Of a stretch of 21,330 bases of DNA, positions 1 to 18,701 are shown in pieces; position 1 is the stretch's first letter, and every line of letters begins with the position of its first letter. Position numbers and translations under genes: made by a program. The notes beneath the pieces were generated by a model that was not told where the DNA came from, ran no database searches, and saw only the letters and a program-made list of their open reading frames with translations. The DNA is taken from the IMG/VR virus record IMGVR_UViG_3300006919_000567, positions 1 to 21,330 of that record; one strand, given 5' to 3'. Source of the stretch: a virus.

Positions 1-89
1 AATATTACTCCGTGTATTACTGCGTTAAATGCTAGTGTCATAGCTATTATTAAACCTATAATTAGTAACAGTGATTCTCCTTCACCCAT
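1..89 (-). CDS. Small membrane protein, cut by the window edge
   Basis: The reading frame starts at an ATG immediately inside the end of the thymidylate-synthase-like gene (8-nt overlap) and runs off the left edge of the window. The start has AGGAG six bases upstream; a second ATG one codon earlier (at 92) is too close to that site. The visible product starts MGEGES and continues as a hydrophobic stretch (LLLIIGLIIAMTLAF), so it is probably a single-span membrane peptide. Total length and function are unknown. It resembles in kind, not in sequence, the other tiny membrane ORFs of this phage. Confidence 0.55.
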   Translation of the reverse strand, partial: MGEGESLLLIIGLIIAMTLAFNAVIHGVI

Positions 90-789
90 CATGTGCTCCT
101 ATATCTAATGTATCCATTGCGTAGTCTACTGGCTTTATATGTTGTTCTATTAAATGAAAATGACGAGGATACATATGTAAACTCTGAGCTTGCCATATAA
201 TACCTCCAACTTCTAGTTCTAAGTCACCAGCTAGTCGTTCTAATACTTTAAACTGCCAATAATAGTCATTAATATACCCAAATACAACATCATTCGAGCG
301 CATCTGTACTACAGCGTGAAGTATGTCTGACTTGTTGTAATATGTTACAGCATTTGTACACACGAAGTCATCCTTACCATGCTCTCTGTGTCTCTGATGC
401 ATGTCTGGGTTTAAGTATATCATAGTTGCTCTACGAGAATCAGGATTTTTCTTTAATTCTCTATAAGCATTCTCATACTGGCTGCCGTTTAGAGCTGAAT
501 GGATCAAGAAACCATAGTTCGAGTTAACACTACCTTTAGTATTAGCAACATGTTCCCAAATGGCTGGCACTTTCCCATAAATATCTCTCAGCTTGTCGGT
601 GTTACAAACCATACTATTATACCAATGTACCTCAGCCTGCTGATACTTAGCATTGGGTTTACCAAATATACTTTCTTCATCGGTTATAAAGCTTGCACCT
701 AGTATTTCTAGGTTACCATCTTCTTCAAAGTCTTGGTCTTTAAATTTCTCTATAAATCTTTCTCTGATATGTTTAACTTGTGTTAACAT
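82..789 (-). CDS. Thymidylate synthase-fold protein, predicted dCMP hydroxymethylase
   Basis: The 235-residue product has the landmarks of the thymidylate synthase superfamily: DSRR at 117-120 (phosphate-binding Arg pair), catalytic Cys144 in FVCTNA, QMRSND at 162-167, and the HMY segment at 205-207. From Cys to this HxY the spacing is the same as in E. coli ThyA (Cys146, Arg166, His207, Tyr209), without gaps. The position equal to ThyA Asn177, which selects dUMP, is Asp175 (GYIND). Asp at this place is the known mark of dCMP hydroxymethylases such as T4 gp42. I therefore infer conversion of dCMP to 5-hydroxymethyl-dCMP using methylene-tetrahydrofolate, for making modified phage DNA. N174 sits next to it, so a one-residue slip would restore a TS-like Asn; this is the main doubt. 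The start overlaps the upstream gene by 17 nt and follows AAGGAAGAGG. Confidence 0.82.
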   Translation of the reverse strand: MLTQVKHIRERFIEKFKDQDFEEDGNLEILGASFITDEESIFGKPNAKYQQAEVHWYNSMVCNTDKLRDIYGKVPAIWEHVANTKGSVNSNYGFLIHSALNGSQYENAYRELKKNPDSRRATMIYLNPDMHQRHREHGKDDFVCTNAVTYYNKSDILHAVVQMRSNDVVFGYINDYYWQFKVLERLAGDLELEVGGIIWQAQSLHMYPRHFHLIEQHIKPVDYAMDTLDIGAHDG

Positions 790-991
790 CCTCTTCCTTC
801 CATACGGTTACGATTGCGGTATTCCATTTGAGTTTTTCTTTTTCAGCTTCTTCTCTACTGGTAAAAAGCTTTATAGGACTATTGGCAGTCCATGGATTTC
901 CTTCTCTTACATACTCATATCCTTCATCAATGAAAGGCTCAATCATTATAGCCCATTGAGTTCCTTTAGGCACTTTAACTTTATGCTCCAT
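773..991 (-). CDS. Hypothetical protein, 72 aa
   Basis: I do not recognise a named family. The product is small and soluble, with aromatic residues in the first half (EYVREGNPW) and a charged SREEAEKEKLKWNTA segment, then a short strand-like IVTVW. The look is that of small conserved accessory proteins common in marine phage early operons. The ATG lies in a coupled train: it overlaps the end of the DUF1599-like gene by 11 nt, with AAGGTAACTCC-type complement (GGAGTTACCTT) upstream giving a GGAG site. The 3' end overlaps the start of the thymidylate-synthase-like gene. Its placement next to nucleotide enzymes suggests an early role but not a specific one. Confidence 0.65.
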   Translation of the reverse strand: MEHKVKVPKGTQWAIMIEPFIDEGYEYVREGNPWTANSPIKLFTSREEAEKEKLKWNTAIVTVWKEEDVNTS

Positions 992-1352
992 TGTAAGGTA
1001 ACTCCTCTATGTCGGGCGTAAACCTATCATTGTTTATTCCCTGATCTTTCTTAACATCAAGACAATTTTCAGTATGTCGGTTTAGCCATACAATAGCTCT
1101 TGCAGAATAATTAATCAGGTCTTTAAGACAATCTTCTGCTGTATCAAAGTTAACATTACCTTGTTGTTCCATTACAGATCTAAAACGTAGTACTTTAGTT
1201 GTCAGCATAGTATCAAATGATTTCCATCCATGAGGATAATAATCATCATCACATACTGAACCACCTTGGTAGTCTTTACCTTTCTTTACCATCAAATCTA
1301 TGCATTCTTCTAGAGCTTTTATTGCGTCATACAAATACGTTTCTTTTGTCAA
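981..1352 (-). CDS. DUF1599 / MazG-like nucleotide-modification-associated protein
   Basis: The 123-residue, all-helical product has KKGKDYQ at 23-29, a K53/R56 pair in TKVLRFR, and EDCLKDLINYSARA at 73-86. This order (K-x-x-DY, then K..R, then E...DL.NY) is that of the DUF1599 / nucleotide-modification-associated domain 1 and related MazG-like proteins, which act on or bind nucleotides and are often found next to phage base-modification enzymes. That fits the hydroxymethylase-like gene two genes downstream. Family assignment is by motif only. The start is unusual: TTG at 1352, placed so that TTGA overlaps the upstream stop, with AAAGGAG upstream. The next Met (residue 21) would remove the first helix. 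Confidence 0.6.
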   Translation of the reverse strand: MTKETYLYDAIKALEECIDLMVKKGKDYQGGSVCDDDYYPHGWKSFDTMLTTKVLRFRSVMEQQGNVNFDTAEDCLKDLINYSARAIVWLNRHTENCLDVKKDQGINNDRFTPDIEELPYNGA

Positions 1353-1573
1353 TGTAATGTCTCCTTTATATCTTTTTCGGTTTGAATACTAGTCGTATGT
1401 ATTTCATTTAGTAATGTTTTAATACTATCCCAGTTCATTTCTTGAACACGGTATAATTGTATTGCGATGGCGAGCATACAGCCCGCCACCACAAATGGAT
1501 CATGTTCTTCTACGAGTAGATCAGTAACAAGAGTTTGAACACGAGTATGTATAGGTTCTATATGATTTTTCAT
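1349..1573 (-). CDS. Hypothetical helical protein, 74 aa
   Basis: Unrecognised. The product is short and mostly helical, with a mildly hydrophobic central segment (DPFVVAGCMLAIAIQLYR) that looks like an amphipathic core helix rather than a clear membrane span, and an acidic or polar C-terminus. Similar DPF..AG.ML.IA..LYR strings occur in small proteins of marine phages, as far as I recall; no function is known to me. It starts at an ATG overlapping the stop of the gene before it (ATGA) and its own stop overlaps the TTG start of the DUF1599-like gene, so it belongs to the translationally coupled operon. Confidence 0.65.
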   Translation of the reverse strand: MKNHIEPIHTRVQTLVTDLLVEEHDPFVVAGCMLAIAIQLYRVQEMNWDSIKTLLNEIHTTSIQTEKDIKETLH

Positions 1574-1815
1574 ACTGCGGTAATCTCCTCTATGTCGGAT
1601 CTGTAGTTCTCAATCAGATACTTACATACTTTGTCCCATGTATTGTACGTTTCGGCTTCAACGTCTGCTGCCACTCCATCGAAATCCTCATCATCACAGC
1701 ATATTTGGAAATTACTATCCCATTCTACGCTACCATAGCACCAGATCTCTCCGCCATCAGGCTTTACATATACAAATTTATCGTTCTCTTGTGTTGTTGA
1801 ATTATCTACACTCAT
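1570..1815 (-). CDS. Hypothetical acidic protein, 81 aa
   Basis: Unrecognised. The preferred start is the ATG at 1815, which has GGAG six bases upstream; in-frame starts at 1827 (ATG), 1851 (ATG) and 1878 (GTG) would lengthen it to at most 102 residues but have weaker sites. The product (MSVDNSTTQEND...) has a compact middle with KFVYVKPDGGEIWCYGSVEW, which looks like a small beta-sheet unit, followed by an acidic CCDDEDFD segment and a C-terminal helix (TWDKVCKYLIENY). It ends in the ATGA overlap with the next gene, so it is part of the left operon. The Cys residues are too few to suggest a metal site. Confidence 0.6.
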   Translation of the reverse strand: MSVDNSTTQENDKFVYVKPDGGEIWCYGSVEWDSNFQICCDDEDFDGVAADVEAETYNTWDKVCKYLIENYRSDIEEITAV

Positions 1816-3410: not shown

Positions 3411-3449
3411 TTAAAAACGCCATCGGCGTCAGTAAGTTCTGACACCGAT
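3411..3449 (-). terminator. Intrinsic terminator after the ssDNA-binding protein gene
   Basis: On the minus strand an 11-bp stem (one G-T type mismatch) pairs ATCGGTGTCAG with CTGACGCCGAT around a 6-base loop, and is followed after GGCG by TTTTT. It lies downstream of the ssDNA-binding protein gene and covers the end of the tiny membrane ORF at 3429-3503. Confidence 0.8.
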
Positions 3450-3503
3450 AGCAATGATTACAAACATAAAACATATAATTAAAACTGGTACAAATTCGTA
3501 CAT
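3429..3503 (-). CDS. Tiny single-span membrane peptide, 24 aa
   Basis: An ATG with AGGAG five bases upstream opens a 24-codon frame starting MYEFVPVL, followed by a hydrophobic run (IICFMFVIIAIG) and ending VRTY. The product would be a minimal single-span membrane peptide. It sits between the ssDNA-binding protein gene and the terminator, with its last codons inside the terminator stem, so it would share the same transcript. No homologue is known to me; the good ribosome site is the main support. Confidence 0.5.
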   Translation of the reverse strand: MYEFVPVLIICFMFVIIAIGVRTY

Positions 3504-4254: not shown

Positions 4255-4282
4255 GTCATACACTCCTTGGTTTAAGATATTT

Positions 4283-4328
4283 ATTATGAGGAATAATTTT
4301 AAATTTTGCCAAAAAATTTAGAAATTAT
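4283..4328 (-). promoter_or_regulatory. Palindromic promoter D (for the 46-aa ORF)
   Basis: On the minus strand: arm ATAATTTCTAAATTT, TTGGCA as -35 (5 of 6 matches to TTGACA), arm AAATTTAAAATTAT, then CATAAT as -10 (5 of 6), with exactly 18 bases between. The upstream arm has one extra C relative to its partner. Confidence 0.62.
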
Positions 4329-4361: not shown

Positions 4362-4391
4362 AAAAAAGCGTGGCACCCTTTCGAGTGCCAC
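4362..4391 (-). terminator. Intrinsic terminator after the gene at 4413-4607
   Basis: On the minus strand a 7-bp stem (GTGGCAC/GTGCCAC) with a loop of about 8 bases is followed by GC and TTTTTT. It closes the transcript that starts at promoter C or at the 19-nt motif at 5938-5956. Confidence 0.8.
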
Positions 4392-4607: not shown

Positions 4608-5091
4608 TTGTATTCTCCCATGGTTTTGCTGCACTACGAGTGTTATCACCGTTTTCATTGATACGATCTATAAGGCGAGTATCATCAGTATTAAACAATG
4701 CTTCTTTTACCTTTTCGAATAAAGGTTTCTGAACATGCATAATATGTAATACATTAGCATCAATACGACAACTTGCAAGCACTTTATTAAGAACATCAAG
4801 CTTTATTGGAAATACAACCTCATCATCTGGACTATTGGTTATGTCTTGCAAATGTACAGATAACGGGTGATTGTACATGAGGTTTCCTGTCAATGGATCT
4901 ATGACAGCAAGCTCATATATGTCAGGCGCACGATGAGACTCTTGAATTATCGACAAATAATACGGATAAGTCGCATCTTCAAAATTGAGACTACAGCGAT
5001 CGATATAAGAACTATCGGTCACTTGCGTACGCGTGAAAGTTAAGTCAACAACATCAGTCTTGACTATAACATGAGTGATTTTATCAGTCAT
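4597..5091 (-). CDS. Hypothetical protein, 164 aa
   Basis: Unrecognised. The ATG at 5091 has AAGGAG six bases upstream and overlaps the stop of the gene before it by 8 nt (ATGACTGA); a start nine codons earlier lacks such a site. The product begins MTDKITHVIVKTDVVDLTF and looks like a mixed alpha-beta protein with several strands in the first half (ATYPYYLSIIQES, YELAVIDPLTG) and helices in the second half (KLDVLNKVLASCR, LFEKVKEALF), ending in a polar tail. No catalytic motif is visible. It is the middle gene of a three-gene unit. Confidence 0.68.
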   Translation of the reverse strand: MTDKITHVIVKTDVVDLTFTRTQVTDSSYIDRCSLNFEDATYPYYLSIIQESHRAPDIYELAVIDPLTGNLMYNHPLSVHLQDITNSPDDEVVFPIKLDVLNKVLASCRIDANVLHIMHVQKPLFEKVKEALFNTDDTRLIDRINENGDNTRSAAKPWENTNDK

Positions 5092-5731
5092 CAGTTTCTC
5101 CTTCAAAATTAGCATCAAATATCACATTAGTGGGATCACTATTCGCTTTAGTGAGCTCTCGATCGTGATCCCGATACACTTTACTTTGAGCTCTATTTCT
5201 CTCATAAGCTTCTTCGATATGAGCAATACCAAGTGTCAAGTTATTTTCAACACCTACACCTTCACCGAAGCTACGACTGACAGTAACAACATTACCATGG
5301 CGTAATATCCACGAGTTGTCATGGTTGTCATTAGTCTTTTCATATAGACTTCGATTGAGTGGCACTGAATTACAGTTATCAATATGACCGTGACCGAACT
5401 GCTTATCGTATTGTATTGCAGTTTCATTGAGGTACATAAAGCCTCCGTGATATGGATCCATGTATCGTTTATAGATACAATGACACACATCTTTTGGATT
5501 GTTATTACGCTCGAAAGCAGCTTTGAAGACTTTATGACAATGACTACAACGAGTATCGACTAATGGACTGTCGCATTCTCTATTGAAGTGACGAGCGATA
5601 TCTAGACGATTCTCAATAGGCACTTCAACGAATACGTAGTCGGTTGCATGATCAATACCTAGTAGCACTTTCTCTGAATGCGATACTAGGGTTTCAATCG
5701 CTTTATCAACGACTGTTTTCTTTGGTTGCAT
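5084..5731 (-). CDS. Hypothetical protein with CxxC...CxC cluster, 215 aa
   Basis: Not recognised as a family. Start at 5731 is chosen because AGGA lies about seven bases upstream; an ATG five codons earlier has no site. The product has a CSHCHK pair at 62-67 and a VCHC pair at 82-85, i.e. CxxC then CxC about 18 residues later with flanking His, a plausible structural zinc site. Other landmarks are HGGFMYLNETAIQYDK in the middle and a charged helical part (HIEEAYERNRAQSKVYRDHD) near the end. It is the first gene of a three-gene unit headed by palindromic promoter C and, further up, by a copy of the 19-nt phage promoter candidate. An early regulatory or DNA-related role is possible but not shown. 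Confidence 0.68.
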   Translation of the reverse strand: MQPKKTVVDKAIETLVSHSEKVLLGIDHATDYVFVEVPIENRLDIARHFNRECDSPLVDTRCSHCHKVFKAAFERNNNPKDVCHCIYKRYMDPYHGGFMYLNETAIQYDKQFGHGHIDNCNSVPLNRSLYEKTNDNHDNSWILRHGNVVTVSRSFGEGVGVENNLTLGIAHIEEAYERNRAQSKVYRDHDRELTKANSDPTNVIFDANFEGETDD

Positions 5732-5784
5732 AGCTGATCCTTTCATTTAACTATGTTGGCTATTAATATTACTTACAAGGTAAT

Positions 5785-5831
5785 ATTAAAGAGATTATTT
5801 TTAAATTATGACAAGGAATTTAGAAAATAAT
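5785..5831 (-). promoter_or_regulatory. Palindromic promoter C (for the 5084-5731 unit)
   Basis: On the minus strand: arm ATTATTTTCTAAATT, TTGTCA as -35 (5 of 6 matches), arm AATTTAAAAATAAT, then TTTAAT as -10 with 18 bases between -35 and -10. The upstream arm again has one extra C. The -35 lies in the loop and the downstream arm lies in the spacer. Confidence 0.62.
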
Positions 5832-5937
5832 ATTATGCAGGCAGCATTGTGGGAGCTCGATATTGGTCGGGAATCACCCAAAAGGCATAGTAATCTATCC
5901 TATACGGGTATATGTCTAACCACCCCGGCCCCTCTTC

Positions 5938-5956
5938 TCTCTAATAGGAGACACTT
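5938..5956 (-). promoter_or_regulatory. 19-nt phage promoter candidate, copy 3
   Basis: The minus strand reads AAGTGTCTCCTATTAGAGA, one base different from the copy at 10031-10049. It is intergenic and points into the 5084-5731 unit, about 210 bases upstream of its start. The shape (conserved core ending in CTATTAGAGA) recalls promoters of T7-type RNA polymerases such as those ending CTATAGGGAGA. Confidence 0.6.
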
Positions 5957-5987
5957 CGGTACGTCGGAGCACAACGCGGTCCCGCTT

Positions 5988-6020
5988 TTAAAAACAAGGA
6001 CTCCCTTTCGGGAGCCCTTG
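5988..6020 (-). terminator. Intrinsic terminator after the 6032-6550 gene
   Basis: On the minus strand an 11-bp stem with one mismatch (CAAGGGCTCCC with GGGAGTCCTTG) and a GAAA tetraloop is followed by TTTTT. GAAA loops are typical of stable hairpins. Confidence 0.88.
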
Positions 6021-6031
6021 CTGCACCTAAA

Positions 6032-6550
6032 TTAGTCAAGAACCTCGAAGCCGTCAGTCTTTTTAGCTTCTTCTTTCTTGTCTTCATCAGACTCTATGTC
6101 TAGATGCTCATCCTTTTCTTCTTCTATTTCAGATGATAACTCATCCAAGAAGTTGTCGAGGTTGTTCTTGCTTTTCTTGCCTTTCAGCAATTCAGCTAGA
6201 GCATCTTTGACTTTACCTTTGGCAGGCACGAATCCGTTGAAGGAATCCATGTCATTTGGCATGATACCTTCGATGTCCAAGTCTTTCACACAAGCCTTGT
6301 TCGAATGGTTATGTATGTCAGAGATACGACTCCATGTTCTGGTGTCGATGATCTGGAACTGGATAACCAATCTACCTGATCGCCATGCATCGTAGAACTT
6401 GCTGTTAGCAAATGCAAAATACATGAACCTCAAGGCATGCATCGGGTTCTTGAAGAAGTTACTAGCTCGATCAAGACCTTCGATCTTGTGGAACTTCTTA
6501 GACACCTTGTTATCGGCTGCCATAGGCGTTACTTTATATTTGTCGGCCAT
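6032..6550 (-). CDS. Early protein, paralogue of the 6788-7177 product, 172 aa
   Basis: Not a family I can name. The product has a basic N-terminal half (HALRFMYFAFANSKFYDAWR at 38-57), a core with GIMPND at 95-100 and GFV at 106-108, a KGKK at 123-126, and a strongly acidic tail (EIEEEKDEHLDIESDED) ending FEVLD. GIMxND, GFV and GKK stand at exactly the same spacing in the product of the next gene upstream, so the two are diverged copies. It forms its own unit: palindromic promoter B, a TAGGAGG ribosome site before ATGGCC, and a strong terminator. A single, well-expressed gene close to the divergent control region would suit an early host-takeover or DNA-binding protein; this is inference. 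Confidence 0.75.
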   Translation of the reverse strand: MADKYKVTPMAADNKVSKKFHKIEGLDRASNFFKNPMHALRFMYFAFANSKFYDAWRSGRLVIQFQIIDTRTWSRISDIHNHSNKACVKDLDIEGIMPNDMDSFNGFVPAKGKVKDALAELLKGKKSKNNLDNFLDELSSEIEEEKDEHLDIESDEDKKEEAKKTDGFEVLD

Positions 6551-6628
6551 GTTGGACCTCCTATATGTTGGCTACAACTACGTGTAGCAGGTTGATCATA
6601 CAATGTTGTAACATACATCATATGATAT

Positions 6629-6674
6629 ATTATATAGATTATTTTTAAAATCCCTAAGGATTTTAGAAAATAAT
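6629..6674 (-). promoter_or_regulatory. Palindromic promoter B (for the 6032-6550 gene)
   Basis: On the minus strand: arm ATTATTTTCTAAAATCC, loop TTAG, arm GGATTTTAAAAATAAT, then a perfect TATAAT at the -10 position. The arms are complementary over 16 bp with one extra C in the upstream arm. The -35 position falls on the loop but matches TTGACA poorly. Confidence 0.6.
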
Positions 6675-6743
6675 AATATGCACTAGCAGATGAAGGTAGC
6701 CGTAAAGGCCACAGCGGTGGCCGACAACGGTGGTCTCCCTTTT

Positions 6744-6775
6744 AAAAACAAAGGCACCCATTAAGAGTGCCTTTG
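6744..6775 (-). terminator. Intrinsic terminator after the 6788-7177 gene
   Basis: On the minus strand a 9-bp stem (CAAAGGCAC with GTGCCTTTG) and a 9-base loop is followed by TTTTT. Like the terminator at 5988-6020 it ends in GTTTTTAAAA. Confidence 0.85.
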
Positions 6776-6787
6776 CCAACCTTGAAA

Positions 6788-7177
6788 TTAATCAAGTATA
6801 TCTTCCAAAGAATCGGAAGAGGTTTCAACCTTCTTTTCAGAGGTTTTATCCTTCTTCTTCTTCTTTGGAGAAGAATCGAGTTCCGCTTGCAAGATCTCGA
6901 TTGCAGCAACGATTGCTTTCTTCTTACCTGTAAGGCAAGCGAAAAGCACAACTGCAAAAGCCTTGCGTTTCATTACGAAACCATCATGACCTTTTGGGTC
7001 ATTTGACATGATTCCGCCGAAAGGCTCGTTAGCCACTACATGGTGACGATCCTTAAGAAAGTCAGCGTAGTAGGTTAACGTTGCAGACGAAGACTGCTTG
7101 AACAGCTTCTTCGATGCAAGCAACGAGTAAACAACTCTTGCAAGTTGATACACGTTCTTTGTTGTATTTCGAGCCAT
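6788..7177 (-). CDS. Early protein, paralogue of the 6032-6550 product, 129 aa
   Basis: Not a family I can name. The product starts MARNTTKNVYQLARVVYSLLASKKLF, has GIMSND at 55-60, GFV at 66-68, a hydrophobic helix (KAFAVVLFACLTGKKK at 72-87), a Lys-rich patch (PKKKKKDK at 104-111) and an acidic end (SSDSLEDILD). The GIMxND-GFV-GKK spacing is identical to the downstream gene's product, and the ribosome site and start context (GGAGTCCAACATGGC against GGAGGTCCAACATGGC) are nearly the same, so gene and leader were duplicated together. It is the first minus-strand gene after the divergent control region, under palindromic promoters A and F, and probably among the first genes expressed. Confidence 0.75.
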   Translation of the reverse strand: MARNTTKNVYQLARVVYSLLASKKLFKQSSSATLTYYADFLKDRHHVVANEPFGGIMSNDPKGHDGFVMKRKAFAVVLFACLTGKKKAIVAAIEILQAELDSSPKKKKKDKTSEKKVETSSDSLEDILD

Positions 7178-7302
7178 GTTGGACTCCTTTCTGCGCTATT
7201 GCGCTTTGTGCAGTTACAACAACTGCGGTTAATACACGACGGATTAGTAATTAATCACATCGAGTTATATATAATAAAGTATAAGAATATAAGTTATTAT
7301 AT

Positions 7303-7381
7303 ATTATATAGATTATTTTTAAATTATTAGAGAGTAAGTTAATGAAGAGAGAGTAAGTTAAGGAAATAATTTAGAAAATAA
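7303..7381 (-). promoter_or_regulatory. Palindromic promoter A (for the 6788-7177 gene)
   Basis: On the minus strand the arms are TTATTTTCTAAATTATT and AATAATTTAAAAATAAT, followed by a perfect TATAAT. The upstream arm again has the extra C. The loop is longer (36 bases) than in the other copies and contains the 14-nt direct repeat. No good -35 hexamer is seen. Confidence 0.55.
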
Positions 7382-7388
7382 GATACGA

Positions 7389-7437
7389 GATATAGATTTA
7401 AAAATATTATTAATGGAATAAATAATATTTTTTAGAT
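7389..7437 (-). promoter_or_regulatory. Palindromic promoter-like element F
   Basis: On the minus strand the arms ATCTAAAAAATATTATT and AATAATATTTTTAAAT flank a 9-base loop and are followed by TATATC near the -10 position. It has the same build as copies A-E, but the -10 and -35 matches are weak, so it may be an operator or a decayed copy. Confidence 0.4.
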
Positions 7438-7510
7438 ATAAAAAGAAGGGGGGTATAAAAATATAAGGGGGTGTATATATATAGGCGTATTTTTTTAAGT
7501 TTATTTAAAG

Positions 7511-7529
7511 AAGTGTCCCCTAGTAGAGA
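7511..7529 (+). promoter_or_regulatory. 19-nt phage promoter candidate, copy 1
   Basis: AAGTGTCCCCTAGTAGAGA stands 34 bases before the first rightward start codon. It differs at one base from the copy at 10031-10049 and at two from the minus-strand copy at 5938-5956. It probably starts the transcript for the terminase and later genes. Confidence 0.65.
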
Positions 7530-7536
7530 TAACAAT

Positions 7537-7553
7537 TGGTTAAATTTTAACCA
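7537..7553. promoter_or_regulatory. Palindromic operator candidate
   Basis: TGGTTAAATTTTAACCA is a perfect 8-bp inverted repeat around one central base. It lies just after promoter candidate copy 1 and touches the AGGAGG ribosome site at 7553-7558, so it could bind a repressor or, in RNA, form a small hairpin that limits ribosome access. Confidence 0.4.
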
Positions 7554-7562
7554 GGAGGTATA

Positions 7563-7823
7563 ATGATTCTCTACAATGATCCCTGCGATGATGTAGGTAT
7601 TAGTGTTAGTGATTGGATAAAAAGGATTAATAATGAACAAAAAACATTTAAAGCAGGATTTGATAGTACTAGGCGTGATAGCGGTAATCATCTTGCTAGC
7701 TATTGGGGTTCATTATGGACAATAAACAAAAACTTGCCATCATTAAAGAAGCACGAAGAAGAAAACTCTTATCAAGATACGAAACCGACTTTGAAAGATT
7801 CGCAAAGGATCAAGTCAAAATAA
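7563..7823 (+). CDS. Possible ORF overlapping the terminase start, 86 aa
   Basis: The ATG has the best ribosome site in the region (AGGAGG, four bases away) and follows promoter candidate copy 1. The product starts MILYNDPCDDVGISVSDWIKR and ends in a Lys-rich tail. The frame runs through a tiny membrane ORF in a second frame and about 109 bases into the terminase gene in a third frame. The first 25 codons lie in otherwise empty sequence and look protein-like; the rest may be only a consequence of the overlap. The gene is therefore uncertain; it may serve as a leader that feeds ribosomes into the next two starts. Confidence 0.35.
   Translation: MILYNDPCDDVGISVSDWIKRINNEQKTFKAGFDSTRRDSGNHLASYWGSLWTINKNLPSLKKHEEENSYQDTKPTLKDSQRIKSK
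7633..7725 (+). CDS. Tiny single-span membrane peptide, 30 aa
   Basis: A 30-codon frame starts at an ATG with AGGA seven bases upstream. The product has a basic start (MNKKHLKQD), a clear hydrophobic span (LIVLGVIAVIILLAIGV) and a short end (HYGQ). Its stop lies just after the terminase ATG, so the two genes overlap by 11 nt. The basic N-terminus, single span and short tail would put the C-terminus outside the cytoplasm. A role in lysis timing or membrane takeover is possible; nothing shows it. Confidence 0.6.
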   Translation: MNKKHLKQDLIVLGVIAVIILLAIGVHYGQ

Positions 7824-9358
7824 TAACAAAAGATGCTGCTAAGGGGTTTACTCCATTCTTATTTAATGATGCACAAAAAGAAATAAACAGACAACTAGAA
7901 AAACAATTAAAAGAAAAAGGCAGAGTACGAGCACTTGTATTAAAGGCTCGTCAACAAGGAATATCTACATATTGTACTGCTCGCACTGCATGGAAGAGTT
8001 ACTTTACCCCTAATGCAAGATCTGTGGTAATGGCTCATGACAGTGCTACTTCTGATGCTTTATTTAGCATGAGCAAAAACTTAATAGAAAGAATGGAAAA
8101 TGAATTCAAACCTCCTTTAATAGCATCGAACGCAAAGGAGATTAAATTTGAGCATAACAATGCAGGATATAGATTATATACGGCGGGTTCTCCAGAAGCG
8201 GGTCGTGGAACTACCCCTACTATTGCTCACCTTAGTGAGGTGGCCTTTTGGACTTTTGACGAGAAGATTCTTGCCGGATTATTCCAAGGTATCTCTCAAG
8301 CTGAGGGTACCGAAGTTATACTGGAATCGACAGCCAACGGTGCAAAAGGAGAATTCTATAGGCTTTGGAAGCAAGCTGAAAAAGGTTATTATAGAGGTGA
8401 GTCAGAGTACATACCTATATTTCTACCTTGGTATATCACTTCTGAATATAGGAGAGAAGCTCCGGAAAATTTTGAACCTACTGAAGAAGAGCTTAAACTC
8501 ATTGATGAACATGGACTGGACTTTGATCAGCTATACTGGCGTCGTCTCAAGATTTCTGAGTCGGGTGAAAGAAAATTTGTCCAGGAGTATCCGAGTCATC
8601 CTGAGGAAGCCTTCTTAGTTAGTGGCAGCAGTGTATTTGATTTAGGTAAATTAAACGCTCTTGAACCCGTACCTTATTTAAAGAAGATGAGATTAGACTT
8701 AGATTCTAAGTTTTTTGAAACTACTAACGAGGGTGACATTGAAATCTATGATTATCCTAACCATGAAAAAGGATATGTTATAGGAGCTGATGTTGCTCTT
8801 GGAGTAGGTAAAGATTATTCTGCTTCTATTGTGCTTGATGAAAAGCGCAATATAGTTGCAGTATATAGAAACAATAGAATAGATCCTAGCAAGTTCGGAG
8901 ACTTTTTATTCTATCTAGGAAGATATTATAATAATGCTTTGCTTGCTGTAGAATCTAACTCTATGGGTATAGCTACACTACAGAAGTTAGATGACATGGG
9001 GTATATAAATTTATATAAGCAAACAAAGATTGCTAACGTAAGTAGAGAAGAAGGAGAAAGATTAGGCTTTAGAACTACTACAGCAACTAGAAGTACAATA
9101 ATAGGAAACTTAAAGAATGCTATAGAAAACGAGGACGTATACATACCTAGCATTGAAGTTATCCAGGAACTAAAAGACTATATAGTAAATGACCATGGGA
9201 AAGCAGAAGCAGCTCCAGGATGTTATGACGATTATGTAATGTCTCTTGCTATTGGATTAGAAGTACTGCGCTCTCACTATGATCGTATAACAACTAATAA
9301 GGTGCCATGGAATCAAAAGTTTTCAACGACACCTACAGATAATACGAGGTGGATATGA
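7715..9358 (+). CDS. terL: Terminase large subunit
   Basis: The product is the packaging motor and nuclease. The ATPase half has a Walker-A-type KARQQGIST, a Walker-B region IAHLSEVAFW, and the coupling motif ILESTANG. The nuclease half has the three acidic sites of the RNase H-like fold: GADVALG (first Asp), VESNSMG (Glu) and CYDDYVMSLAIG (last Asp). The sequence RYETDFERFAKD at the start aligns in kind with other phage terminases that have PF.FN.AQ following. The ATG at 7715 is chosen; TTG at 7703 would add four residues. At 547 residues it is of usual length. It overlaps the tiny membrane ORF upstream and the hydrolase gene downstream (ATGA). Confidence 0.96.
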   Translation: MDNKQKLAIIKEARRRKLLSRYETDFERFAKDQVKIITKDAAKGFTPFLFNDAQKEINRQLEKQLKEKGRVRALVLKARQQGISTYCTARTAWKSYFTPNARSVVMAHDSATSDALFSMSKNLIERMENEFKPPLIASNAKEIKFEHNNAGYRLYTAGSPEAGRGTTPTIAHLSEVAFWTFDEKILAGLFQGISQAEGTEVILESTANGAKGEFYRLWKQAEKGYYRGESEYIPIFLPWYITSEYRREAPENFEPTEEELKLIDEHGLDFDQLYWRRLKISESGERKFVQEYPSHPEEAFLVSGSSVFDLGKLNALEPVPYLKKMRLDLDSKFFETTNEGDIEIYDYPNHEKGYVIGADVALGVGKDYSASIVLDEKRNIVAVYRNNRIDPSKFGDFLFYLGRYYNNALLAVESNSMGIATLQKLDDMGYINLYKQTKIANVSREEGERLGFRTTTATRSTIIGNLKNAIENEDVYIPSIEVIQELKDYIVNDHGKAEAAPGCYDDYVMSLAIGLEVLRSHYDRITTNKVPWNQKFSTTPTDNTRWI

Positions 9359-9780
9359 TACTAGAAACTGCACTTATGTGTATGGCTGCTAATATATATC
9401 ACGAGGCAAAGAACCAATCTATGCTAGGGCAATTTGCGGTTGCTCAAGTAGTAATGAATCGAGTAGAAGACCATAGATACCCTAACACAATCTGTGAGGT
9501 TGTAAAGCAGGGTTTAACATATAAAAACGGAAAGGTAGTAATAGGCAAATGCCAGTTTTCCTGGTACTGCGATGGAAAGTCTGATGAACCTAGAAGAAAA
9601 AGTAAAGCATGGAGTAACGCTATAAGACATGCATCTATAATAATGGGTGAAAGTATTAATCTAGACGTAACCGATGGTGCTACTCACTATCACGCAAGCT
9701 ACGTTAGGCCATCATGGGCTAAAACAAAAACACGAACAACGAGGATTGATAAACATATATTCTATAGGTGGGAGAAGTAA
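9355..9780 (+). CDS. SleB-like cell wall hydrolase
   Basis: The 141-residue product fits the Hydrolase_2 (SleB) family: NIYHEAKNQS at 13-22 with Glu17 as the likely catalytic acid, GQFAVAQVVMNRVEDHRYPNTICEVV at 25-50, and CQFSWYCDG at 66-74. These enzymes cut peptidoglycan glycan strands. No signal peptide is seen, so it would need a holin or act as a virion enzyme. The ATG at 9355 has GAGG five bases away and overlaps the terminase stop; a GTG two codons earlier is less likely. Together with the M15 peptidase further on, the phage has two wall-degrading enzymes in the packaging region. Confidence 0.9.
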   Translation: MILETALMCMAANIYHEAKNQSMLGQFAVAQVVMNRVEDHRYPNTICEVVKQGLTYKNGKVVIGKCQFSWYCDGKSDEPRRKSKAWSNAIRHASIIMGESINLDVTDGATHYHASYVRPSWAKTKTRTTRIDKHIFYRWEK

Positions 9781-9782
9781 CT

Positions 9783-10031
9783 ATGAGTAAAAACGTTAAG
9801 CTTTCTGTAGGAAGAGGTGAAAAGAGATCAGTAAAATCAGGAGCTGGATTAACGGCAAAAGGAGTAGCAAAGTATAAACGCGCTAATCCTGGATCTAAAC
9901 TAAAAACTGCTGTAACAGGTAAAGTAAAACCTGGAAGTAAGGCAGCAGGCAGAAGAAAATCTTTTTGTGCGAGGTCTAAGGGATGGACCGGCGAAAGAGG
10001 TAAAGCTGCTAGAAGAAGATGGAAATGTTAA
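9783..10031 (+). CDS. DUF6321-type basic protein, 82 aa
   Basis: The product is very basic and starts MSKNVKLSVGRGEKRSVKSG, continuing AGLTAKGVAKYKRANPGSKLKTAV and ending with KSFCARSKGW...RRRWKC. The pair of landmarks GLTAKGVAKY..NPGSKL and RRKSFCAR...RRWKC is that of a conserved protein common in cyanophages and other marine phages (I believe named DUF6321). Its role is unknown; the charge suggests DNA or RNA contact. The ATG at 9783 has GGAGAAG upstream; a GTG five codons earlier lies inside the hydrolase gene. Confidence 0.75.
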   Translation: MSKNVKLSVGRGEKRSVKSGAGLTAKGVAKYKRANPGSKLKTAVTGKVKPGSKAAGRRKSFCARSKGWTGERGKAARRRWKC

Positions 10032-10049
10032 AGTGTCCCCTATTAGAGA
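10031..10049 (+). promoter_or_regulatory. 19-nt phage promoter candidate, copy 2
   Basis: AAGTGTCCCCTATTAGAGA begins on the last base of the DUF6321-type gene and ends 27 bases before the next ATG, in one of the few gaps of this arm. The match over the full 19 bases to copy 1 (18 of 19) is far beyond chance in a non-coding gap. Confidence 0.65.
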
Positions 10050-17345: not shown

Positions 17346-18701
17346 ATGGAAGTACGGGTACCAATGCCAAGACCTAATAACATAGGTCCTTTAGTTGTAC
17401 CAGCTCCTTTGGCTAAACCACTAGAATTTATGACCATAGATGAAAAGAAAGCTATGGTTGAAAACTATAAAAGAACTGTGCCTTATCATCATCGTGCGTT
17501 AGGAGACGTAGAGTTTAGAGCTGATATTGATAAATACGTTAATACTAGTCCTAGAGCAATACTAGCTCTTCATGATATAGAAAAAAGAACTGGAGGAGAT
17601 TACGGTCAGTTAATAGATTTTAATGCGTTTCAAGATGCTGACAAAGATATGGGAGAAGATGGTAACTTAGGTAGTTATAACTGGAGACCTATAGGAGTGT
17701 TAAACGATCAGTATTTACAAGGTATTACTATAAATCCTGTAGAAACTGATTTCTTAGGAGACCTAATGGCGCAAGATTCTAGTCTGAGAGAATCGTTTAG
17801 AAAAAATAATATTAAAGATATTTATGCAAAATCACCGTGGTGGTCTACACTTAGACACGAGTTAGATCATTATGCAGATGATTATCTTTTTGGTCCTCTT
17901 AATTTTGCTCAAGCCCCTAACTTAAATACAAGTAAAAGTGGTCCTTTTACTTATGGTACAGCTAGTCGCCCAGATATAGTAAATGAACAAATGTGGTTAG
18001 CAAGTCATGGCTATCAAAGCGCATATGATCCAAGAAGAAGAGAAGTTATAATTACTGGTAAAAGAGATAAGTTTGTTCCTGAACAAGGACCTTTTTATGA
18101 TTCAACTACTGAGTTAGGTTCTGACGTACAAAACGTACAAAACTTAATTACTTCTTTAAAAGCTGATTATGCTAAAGCTGAAGAGGCTGCTGAGCAAAAA
18201 TTAATTGAAATGGGCTTTGATACACACAACGATATATGGAATAAATACACAAATAAAGAAATTAATAAAGAAGAATATAAAAAAGAAAACGATAAATATA
18301 TAGATCGTATGCTTAAGTTTGGAGGAATGAACGATCAACAAAAAGCAATGTTTACAGAAATGGAACGATATGGTGGTAATTTTACATCATCTATGAGACA
18401 TAGGAACTTAACTCCTTTAGATGTACTAGATGATAGAAGTACTGGTTACGCAGATTTTCTATATCCTCCAGAGATAGGTGATAGCAAAACAGCTGATTTA
18501 TTAGAGTATGAAAACGTAAATATACCAGAAGGAAGTCATGCTGAAGCAATAAAAGCTATAGAAAATTTAGCTTTAAAAAGATTAGAAGAGTTAGGTGTTC
18601 CAAGAACGCCAACAAACATACGTAAATTAAGTCTTTTAGATAGACTTGGTTCAGTGCTAGGATTAAGAGAACTTCCTAAACAACCAAGATATACATATTA
18701 A
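17346..18701 (+). CDS. Hypothetical protein with HExxH zinc-peptidase motif, 451 aa
   Basis: No named family is recognised. A candidate zinc-metallopeptidase motif, HELDH at 171-175, lies in STLRHELDHYADDYLFG, where the flanking helix pattern is right for a gluzincin- or metzincin-like site; a third ligand could not be fixed. The N-terminus is Pro-rich (MEVRVPMPRPNNIGPLVVPA), and the second half is charged and helical (KADYAKAEEAAEQKLIEMG; NKEEYKKENDKYIDR). The gene is the first after the capsid terminator. It might be a maturation peptidase, a virion protein with wall-degrading or host-cleaving action, or a non-enzymatic protein in which the motif is chance. Confidence 0.7.
   Translation: MEVRVPMPRPNNIGPLVVPAPLAKPLEFMTIDEKKAMVENYKRTVPYHHRALGDVEFRADIDKYVNTSPRAILALHDIEKRTGGDYGQLIDFNAFQDADKDMGEDGNLGSYNWRPIGVLNDQYLQGITINPVETDFLGDLMAQDSSLRESFRKNNIKDIYAKSPWWSTLRHELDHYADDYLFGPLNFAQAPNLNTSKSGPFTYGTASRPDIVNEQMWLASHGYQSAYDPRRREVIITGKRDKFVPEQGPFYDSTTELGSDVQNVQNLITSLKADYAKAEEAAEQKLIEMGFDTHNDIWNKYTNKEINKEEYKKENDKYIDRMLKFGGMNDQQKAMFTEMERYGGNFTSSMRHRNLTPLDVLDDRSTGYADFLYPPEIGDSKTADLLEYENVNIPEGSHAEAIKAIENLALKRLEELGVPRTPTNIRKLSLLDRLGSVLGLRELPKQPRYTY

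Follow-up and report, generated by a model that had tools for sequence, protein, structure and literature searches.

A short repeated element of CRP-7-type marine podoviruses as the very probable promoter of their own T7-type RNA polymerase

Which factor reads a 19-base motif that stands three times, on both strands, in a phage genome fragment, and what might the phage use it for? The stretch analyzed here, henceforth the window, comprises an entire IMG/VR record (21,330 bases). Judged by its genes, it represents part of the genome of a CRP-7-type marine podovirus, with Roseobacter phage CRP-7 (MK613349) as the closest isolate; the group has in common with CRP-7 the terminase large subunit (TerL), portal, capsid, scaffold, DNAP, primase and RNAP. 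Identity to CRP-7 is 56% for TerL, ~50% for the primase, ~35% for the DNAP and ~32–38% for the RNAP, while the portal and capsid of the relative G001 are each ~54% identical to those of CRP-7. For comparison we used near-complete or long IMG/VR relatives, namely G001 (60 kb), G014 (58 kb), G020 (56 kb) and G040 (47 kb), along with many shorter ones; the window is collinear with positions 18.3–41.3 kb of G001. Taken together, the motif itself, its placement, direction and clade exclusivity, the presence of a polymerase and the co-variation of the two make it very probable, on sequence evidence, that a T7-type single-subunit RNA polymerase encoded by the phage itself uses the motif as its promoter.

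Placement of the motif in the window and in whole genomes

The motif copies and the genes that they precede are as follows.

5938–5956, minus: motif copy P3, AAGTGTCTCCTATTAGAGA, at the head of the leftward arm; likely +1, the A at 5942
7511–7529, plus: motif copy P1, AAGTGTCCCCTAGTAGAGA, upstream of a small ORF and TerL; likely +1, the A at 7525
10031–10049, plus: motif copy P2, AAGTGTCCCCTATTAGAGA, upstream of a TerS-like gene; likely +1, the A at 10045
5084–5746, minus: 220-aa gene without known family, 193 nt downstream of P3
7563–7823, plus: small ORF of 86 aa directly after P1 (~34 nt) with the Shine-Dalgarno sequence AGGAGG; candidate first cistron of the rightward transcript
7703–9358, plus, with an ATG start at 7715: TerL (phrog_2, E 2e-30), 187 nt from P1
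10077–10493, plus: 138-aa gene, 29 nt from P2, homologous to the CRP-7 gene 52123–52596 that adjoins the CRP-7 TerL

The initial annotation had described three copies that are intergenic, point into the next gene and differ at only two positions. Its coordinates and strands are exact, the placement and direction hold for all three among plausible genes, and the variable positions are 8 (C/T) and 13 (T/G). Two antisense ORFs that overlap motif copies (5808–6035, plus; 7410–7691, minus) were judged spurious. The position of the 138-aa gene suggests a terminase small subunit; a family search gave no match for it.

Three copies stand against ~0.01 expected by chance: dinucleotide shuffles of the window, with up to three mismatches allowed, contained 0.01 matches on average and in no case three. 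At the same tolerance the window holds no site beyond the three copies. These sites score 32–33.5 bits with a position weight matrix built from other genomes, and nothing in the rest of the window reaches 9 bits.

Further intergenic copies, which the initial annotation had proposed to look for in the full genome, are indeed present in the relatives. Those of ~56–60 kb carry the motif only four times each, in locations that are conserved: one copy precedes the terminase, one precedes the TerS-like gene, one heads the opposite arm and one, past the window's right end, precedes the ribonucleotide reductase (P4). The P1 place is kept before TerL in all relatives holding the region. The P2 place is kept in G014, G035 and L013; in G001, G002 and G020 it is shifted upstream by some genes. 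That of P3 is kept in G001, G002, G014, G018, G020, L008, L009, L012, L013, L015 and L017. P4 stands 24–31 nt before the ribonucleotide reductase gene (PF02867) in most relatives with the region and 89 nt before it in G014; a P4 copy is also present in G016, the record whose RNAP shares 99.7% identity with the enzyme of the window's population. Across six records, 23 of the 25 sites are intergenic and co-directional with the next gene, as against 3–13% at random placement; of the two exceptions, a site in G020 hinges on a doubtful antisense ORF, and one in G040 (46335) falls within a gene at the end of the contig.

The same element emerges from de novo searches of the intergenic DNA of G001, G014 and G020, with four copies in each and no other shared motif of similar strength; G022 searched alone gave nothing with at least two near-exact intergenic copies. 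Weight-matrix scans of G001, G014 and G020 separate true sites (at least 29 bits) from all other positions (below 9 bits) without intermediate scores; the maximum in shuffled G001 was 16.4 bits.

Extent of the element, start register and the polymerase

When the relatives are compared, only 17 nt of the motif prove conserved, STGTCYCCTANTAGAGA, and AA is weakly preferred just upstream. We computed the information content from a single site for each place in each lineage. It comes close to the maximum at every position from -11 to +5 other than -9, -7 and -2, position -12 is either C or G, and the flanks on both sides are at background. The profile reveals no conserved element in the -35 region and no conserved AT-rich block at -17 to -13, where there is but a weak preference for A at -14/-13. 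Such an AT-rich block is a trait of T7, T3 and SP6 promoters and is not known to be required of all promoters of this kind.

The right end of the motif, TANTAGAGA, was compared with the annotated +1 of six T7 promoters in the T7 record. The likeness to T7 promoter ends noted in the initial annotation is real, and phi2.5 (CTATT|AGGG) is the best match. With A as +1, the register reads C-5 T-4 A-3 N-2 T-1, followed by A+1 G+2 A+3 G+4. We infer from this comparison that the A of the motif is +1. The G (TA|GAGA) is a possible alternative; A is favoured because, with G as +1, those sites of a sister clade that carry TATTACAGA would start with C.

The same profile bears on whether the motif might instead be a promoter element of a host sigma factor, with TATTAG as a -10-like hexamer. 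This hexamer does match TATAAT at four of six positions and lies in an AT-rich region. Yet the conserved block extends upstream into an almost invariant GTCYCC that sigma70 -10 elements do not need, there is no -35 conservation at a spacing of 16–18 nt, and the sequence changes follow the clade of the phage RNAP, as described below; a scan for sigma70-type promoters gave matches at shuffle level. We consider the chance of such a sigma element extremely small.

As the initial annotation had stated, the window has no gene for a phage RNA polymerase; the gene lies ~7.7 kb beyond the left end, on the contig L123 (IMGVR_UViG_3300025769_007353), which overlaps window positions 1–1705 at 99.8% identity over 1705 bp. 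The T7-type single-subunit RNAP of L123, which begins with MQNVIEYL, shares 99.7% identity with the G016 enzyme. A PF00940 RNAP gene is present in G001, G002, G014, G015, G016 and CRP-7 and in every large relative examined, so the search for such a gene, likewise suggested in the initial annotation, has a positive outcome throughout. The RNAPs of the window clade match phrog_414 and PF00940, and they conserve the T7 catalytic residues D537, K631, Y639, H811 and D812. T7 and mitochondrial RNAPs are matched both in sequence searches and by the predicted fold, in a model of modest confidence (pLDDT 60) whose specificity loop (<50) is too low in confidence for contact modelling. Apart from that of CRP-7, the polymerases of the nearest isolates are <30% identical, and a search of bacterial genomes confirmed no integrated relatives of the RNAP. 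The AT-rich recognition loop of T7 RNAP has no aligned counterpart in this enzyme, whose N-terminal part is shorter and uncertain in its alignment; this agrees with the absence of a conserved block at -17 to -13.

Change of the motif with the polymerase clade

In the CRP-7 clade, whose polymerase is ~38% identical to that of the window clade, the motif is different but related, AGTCCNNTATTAAAAG, and this version is also found in ~40 relatives. An unguided search of CRP-7 intergenic DNA returned one main family, TAGTCCNNTATTAAAAG, with five copies, all intergenic and co-directional with the next gene; their record coordinates are given below.

2028, plus: CRP-7 motif copy
7149, plus: CRP-7 motif copy
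14766, plus: CRP-7 motif copy
38278, minus: CRP-7 motif copy
57228, minus: CRP-7 motif copy

One of the five lies 11 nt before the polymerase gene, unlike in the window clade, where no copy is directly upstream of that gene; another precedes a ribonucleotide reductase gene, as a copy does in the window clade. GTCC..TATTA is common to the two motifs in register; the CRP-7 version has NN around the equivalents of -7/-6 and AAAAG downstream where the window has AGAGA.

The two versions are exclusive to their clades. Exact sites of the window core number 45 in the 676 kb of sequence from its own clade, against none in the 493 kb from the CRP-7 clade; conversely, 52 exact sites of the CRP-7 core lie in the CRP-7 clade and none in that of the window, though many of the sites in both counts are orthologous copies of the same place and hence not independent events. 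Reversed-pattern controls gave no sites. A sister clade, with RNAPs 73–77% identical to those of the window clade and the same specificity loop core (KWKSWISDMRIQHVG), has an intermediate variant: its sites mostly keep the -12 to -3 block, vary at +1 to +5 or at -1 (GTGTCCCCTATTACAGA, GTGTCYCCTATAAGAGA, GTGTCCCCTATTAGAAG) and differ mainly downstream of -2. Placed on the RNAP tree, the motif classes need the fewest possible changes. The specificity loop, near-constant within each clade, is entirely different between the window and CRP-7 clades. Together, these comparisons show the motif co-varying with the polymerase clade.

Co-variation alone does not name the polymerase, as any vertically inherited DNA-binding factor would co-vary too. 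In particular, the motif could be an operator for a phage repressor or activator acting on the host RNA polymerase, and such a regulator, if vertically inherited, would likewise give few conserved, co-directional upstream sites with clade-specific changes. However, the site is non-palindromic and has one fixed orientation relative to the gene; there is no conserved -35/-10 pair alongside, with sigma70-like matches in the region at shuffle level; and the right end of the motif has a T7-type melting and start register. Moreover, single-subunit RNAPs need promoters, all of the large relatives encode such an enzyme, and the de novo searches turned up no other shared intergenic motif that is similarly strong. 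We therefore regard an operator as quite improbable and favour the promoter of the phage polymerase.

Mode of action, known systems and neighbouring elements

Briefly, we advance the following mechanism, in which we infer polymerase binding, the +1 base, the timing and the role of the host polymerase for early genes. The early leftward genes, that of the phage polymerase included, would probably be read by the host RNA polymerase. The specificity loop of the phage polymerase would then read the 8-bp block STGTCYCC (-12 to -5), and the enzyme would melt TANT (-4 to -1) and start on the A (+1) of AGAGA, in the manner of T7 RNAP at phi2.5. In this way, P1 and P2 would turn on the packaging/structural operon, P3 the leftward arm and P4, outside the window, the ribonucleotide reductase and tail genes.

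As in T7-type promoters, the element is short (of the ~17–23 bp class) and continuous, and it is repeated in one orientation upstream of transcription units, in few copies of fixed direction, with a single-subunit RNAP encoded by the same genome. It has C(-5)T(-4)A(-3), a T-rich melting region and a start on A followed by purines (CTATT|AGGG in T7 phi2.5; CTANT|AGAGA here). In contrast to T7, the upstream block is TGTCYCC in place of ACGACTCA and the conserved AT-rich block at -17 to -13 is missing. The sites lie on both strands, in two divergent arms, and number 4–5 per genome, fewer than the larger set of T7, which weighs against the promoter reading. The RNAP is likewise of the Autographiviridae type, to judge from its phrog_414 and PF00940 matches and retained T7 catalytic residues, but a distant member with a shorter N-terminal part and no aligned counterpart of the AT-rich recognition loop.

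T7 starts with ATP only at rare promoters of the phi2.5 type. Against this backdrop, we tentatively propose, at somewhat under an even chance, that CRP-7-type phages have a distinct subfamily of single-subunit RNAPs without upstream AT-rich contacts, with a compact promoter of ~17 bp, an ATP start at every promoter and at least two to three naturally orthogonal A-starting pairs. The CRP-7 paper reported the RNAP gene as <25% identical to Autographivirinae polymerases, and the word "promoter" is absent from its text (PMC6918029); the open-access literature searched held no description of promoters of CRP-7-type phages. Thus, the pair appears to be of a well-known kind, but this particular pair was not found described in that literature. 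It would define, from sequence alone, a transcription map for an abundant, uncharacterised group of marine phages, and would offer a natural example, spanning two to three clades, of a promoter that changes along with its polymerase. Orthogonal in vitro transcription systems, possibly with an ATP start, might be built from these pairs, and the motif could serve as a marker linking metagenomic fragments of this phage group.

Two further features adjoin P3.

5820–5937, minus: GC-rich leader after P3, kept in relatives, without consensus structure
5990–6019, minus: hairpin AAGGGCTCCCGAAAGGGAGTCCTT followed by GTTTTT, just upstream of P3, read by eye

The leader (~120 nt, window 5820–5942, minus) has the recurring blocks AUUGGGUGAUU ... 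CUCUCAA ... CCACCUGCCUA, kept across relatives whose downstream genes differ; the block TTGGGTGATT is also found just upstream of P3 in G032 and G040. The leader is possibly a small phage RNA. We rejected it as a conserved structured RNA: RNAalifold predicted no pairs on the aligned P3 leaders of relatives, and single-sequence folds disagree and are mostly no better than shuffles. The hairpin is a probable terminator of the gene preceding P3; the consensus scan did not flag it.

A motif close to transcript 5' ends might also act in the RNA, where it could signal processing or antitermination or belong to a leader. In favour of this, the copies are located in 5' regions, P3 is followed by a conserved leader, and in some of the copies TCTC...GAGA could pair into a stem of 4 bp. 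However, C at the Y position breaks the TCYC/GAGA stem in about half of the copies, for which the constant GAGA gives no compensation; the surrounding sequence is without consensus structure and the flanks of P1–P4 are unrelated to each other. Hence, we rejected an RNA hairpin and hold an RNA signal of any of these kinds to be very improbable, in favour of the polymerase promoter.

Several other elements were observed in the window. Just 5' of the Shine-Dalgarno sequence, the P1 leader has an inverted repeat, GGTTAAA-TTT-TAACC (7534–7556, plus), that is near-identical in all relatives. The intergenic DNA upstream of four leftward genes has a common element (minus strand, 6621–6682, 7295–7323, 5777–5839 and 4282–4327), consisting of an AT-rich inverted repeat (TTATTTTCTAAAATCC..GGGATTTTAAAAATAAT) and then TATATAATATA, which may be an early, host-read promoter/operator set. 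Rfam searches of the window yielded chance matches below threshold only, and a tRNA search found none. A Thymidylate-synthase-family protein (PF00303, E 9e-15) is encoded at 82–789 (minus); together with the ribonucleotide reductase under P4 in relatives, it makes up a nucleotide-metabolism set that would be partly under the proposed phage promoter. Strong hairpins with T runs and similar T-rich tails, resembling intrinsic terminators, stand between leftward genes at 3418–3453 and 4370–4391 (minus). Finally, G001 has three identical intergenic hairpin repeats of ~22 nt, AAAGCGCGATGAATATCGCGC, at 17611, 19947 and 23387, which are possibly terminators spread within the leftward arm.
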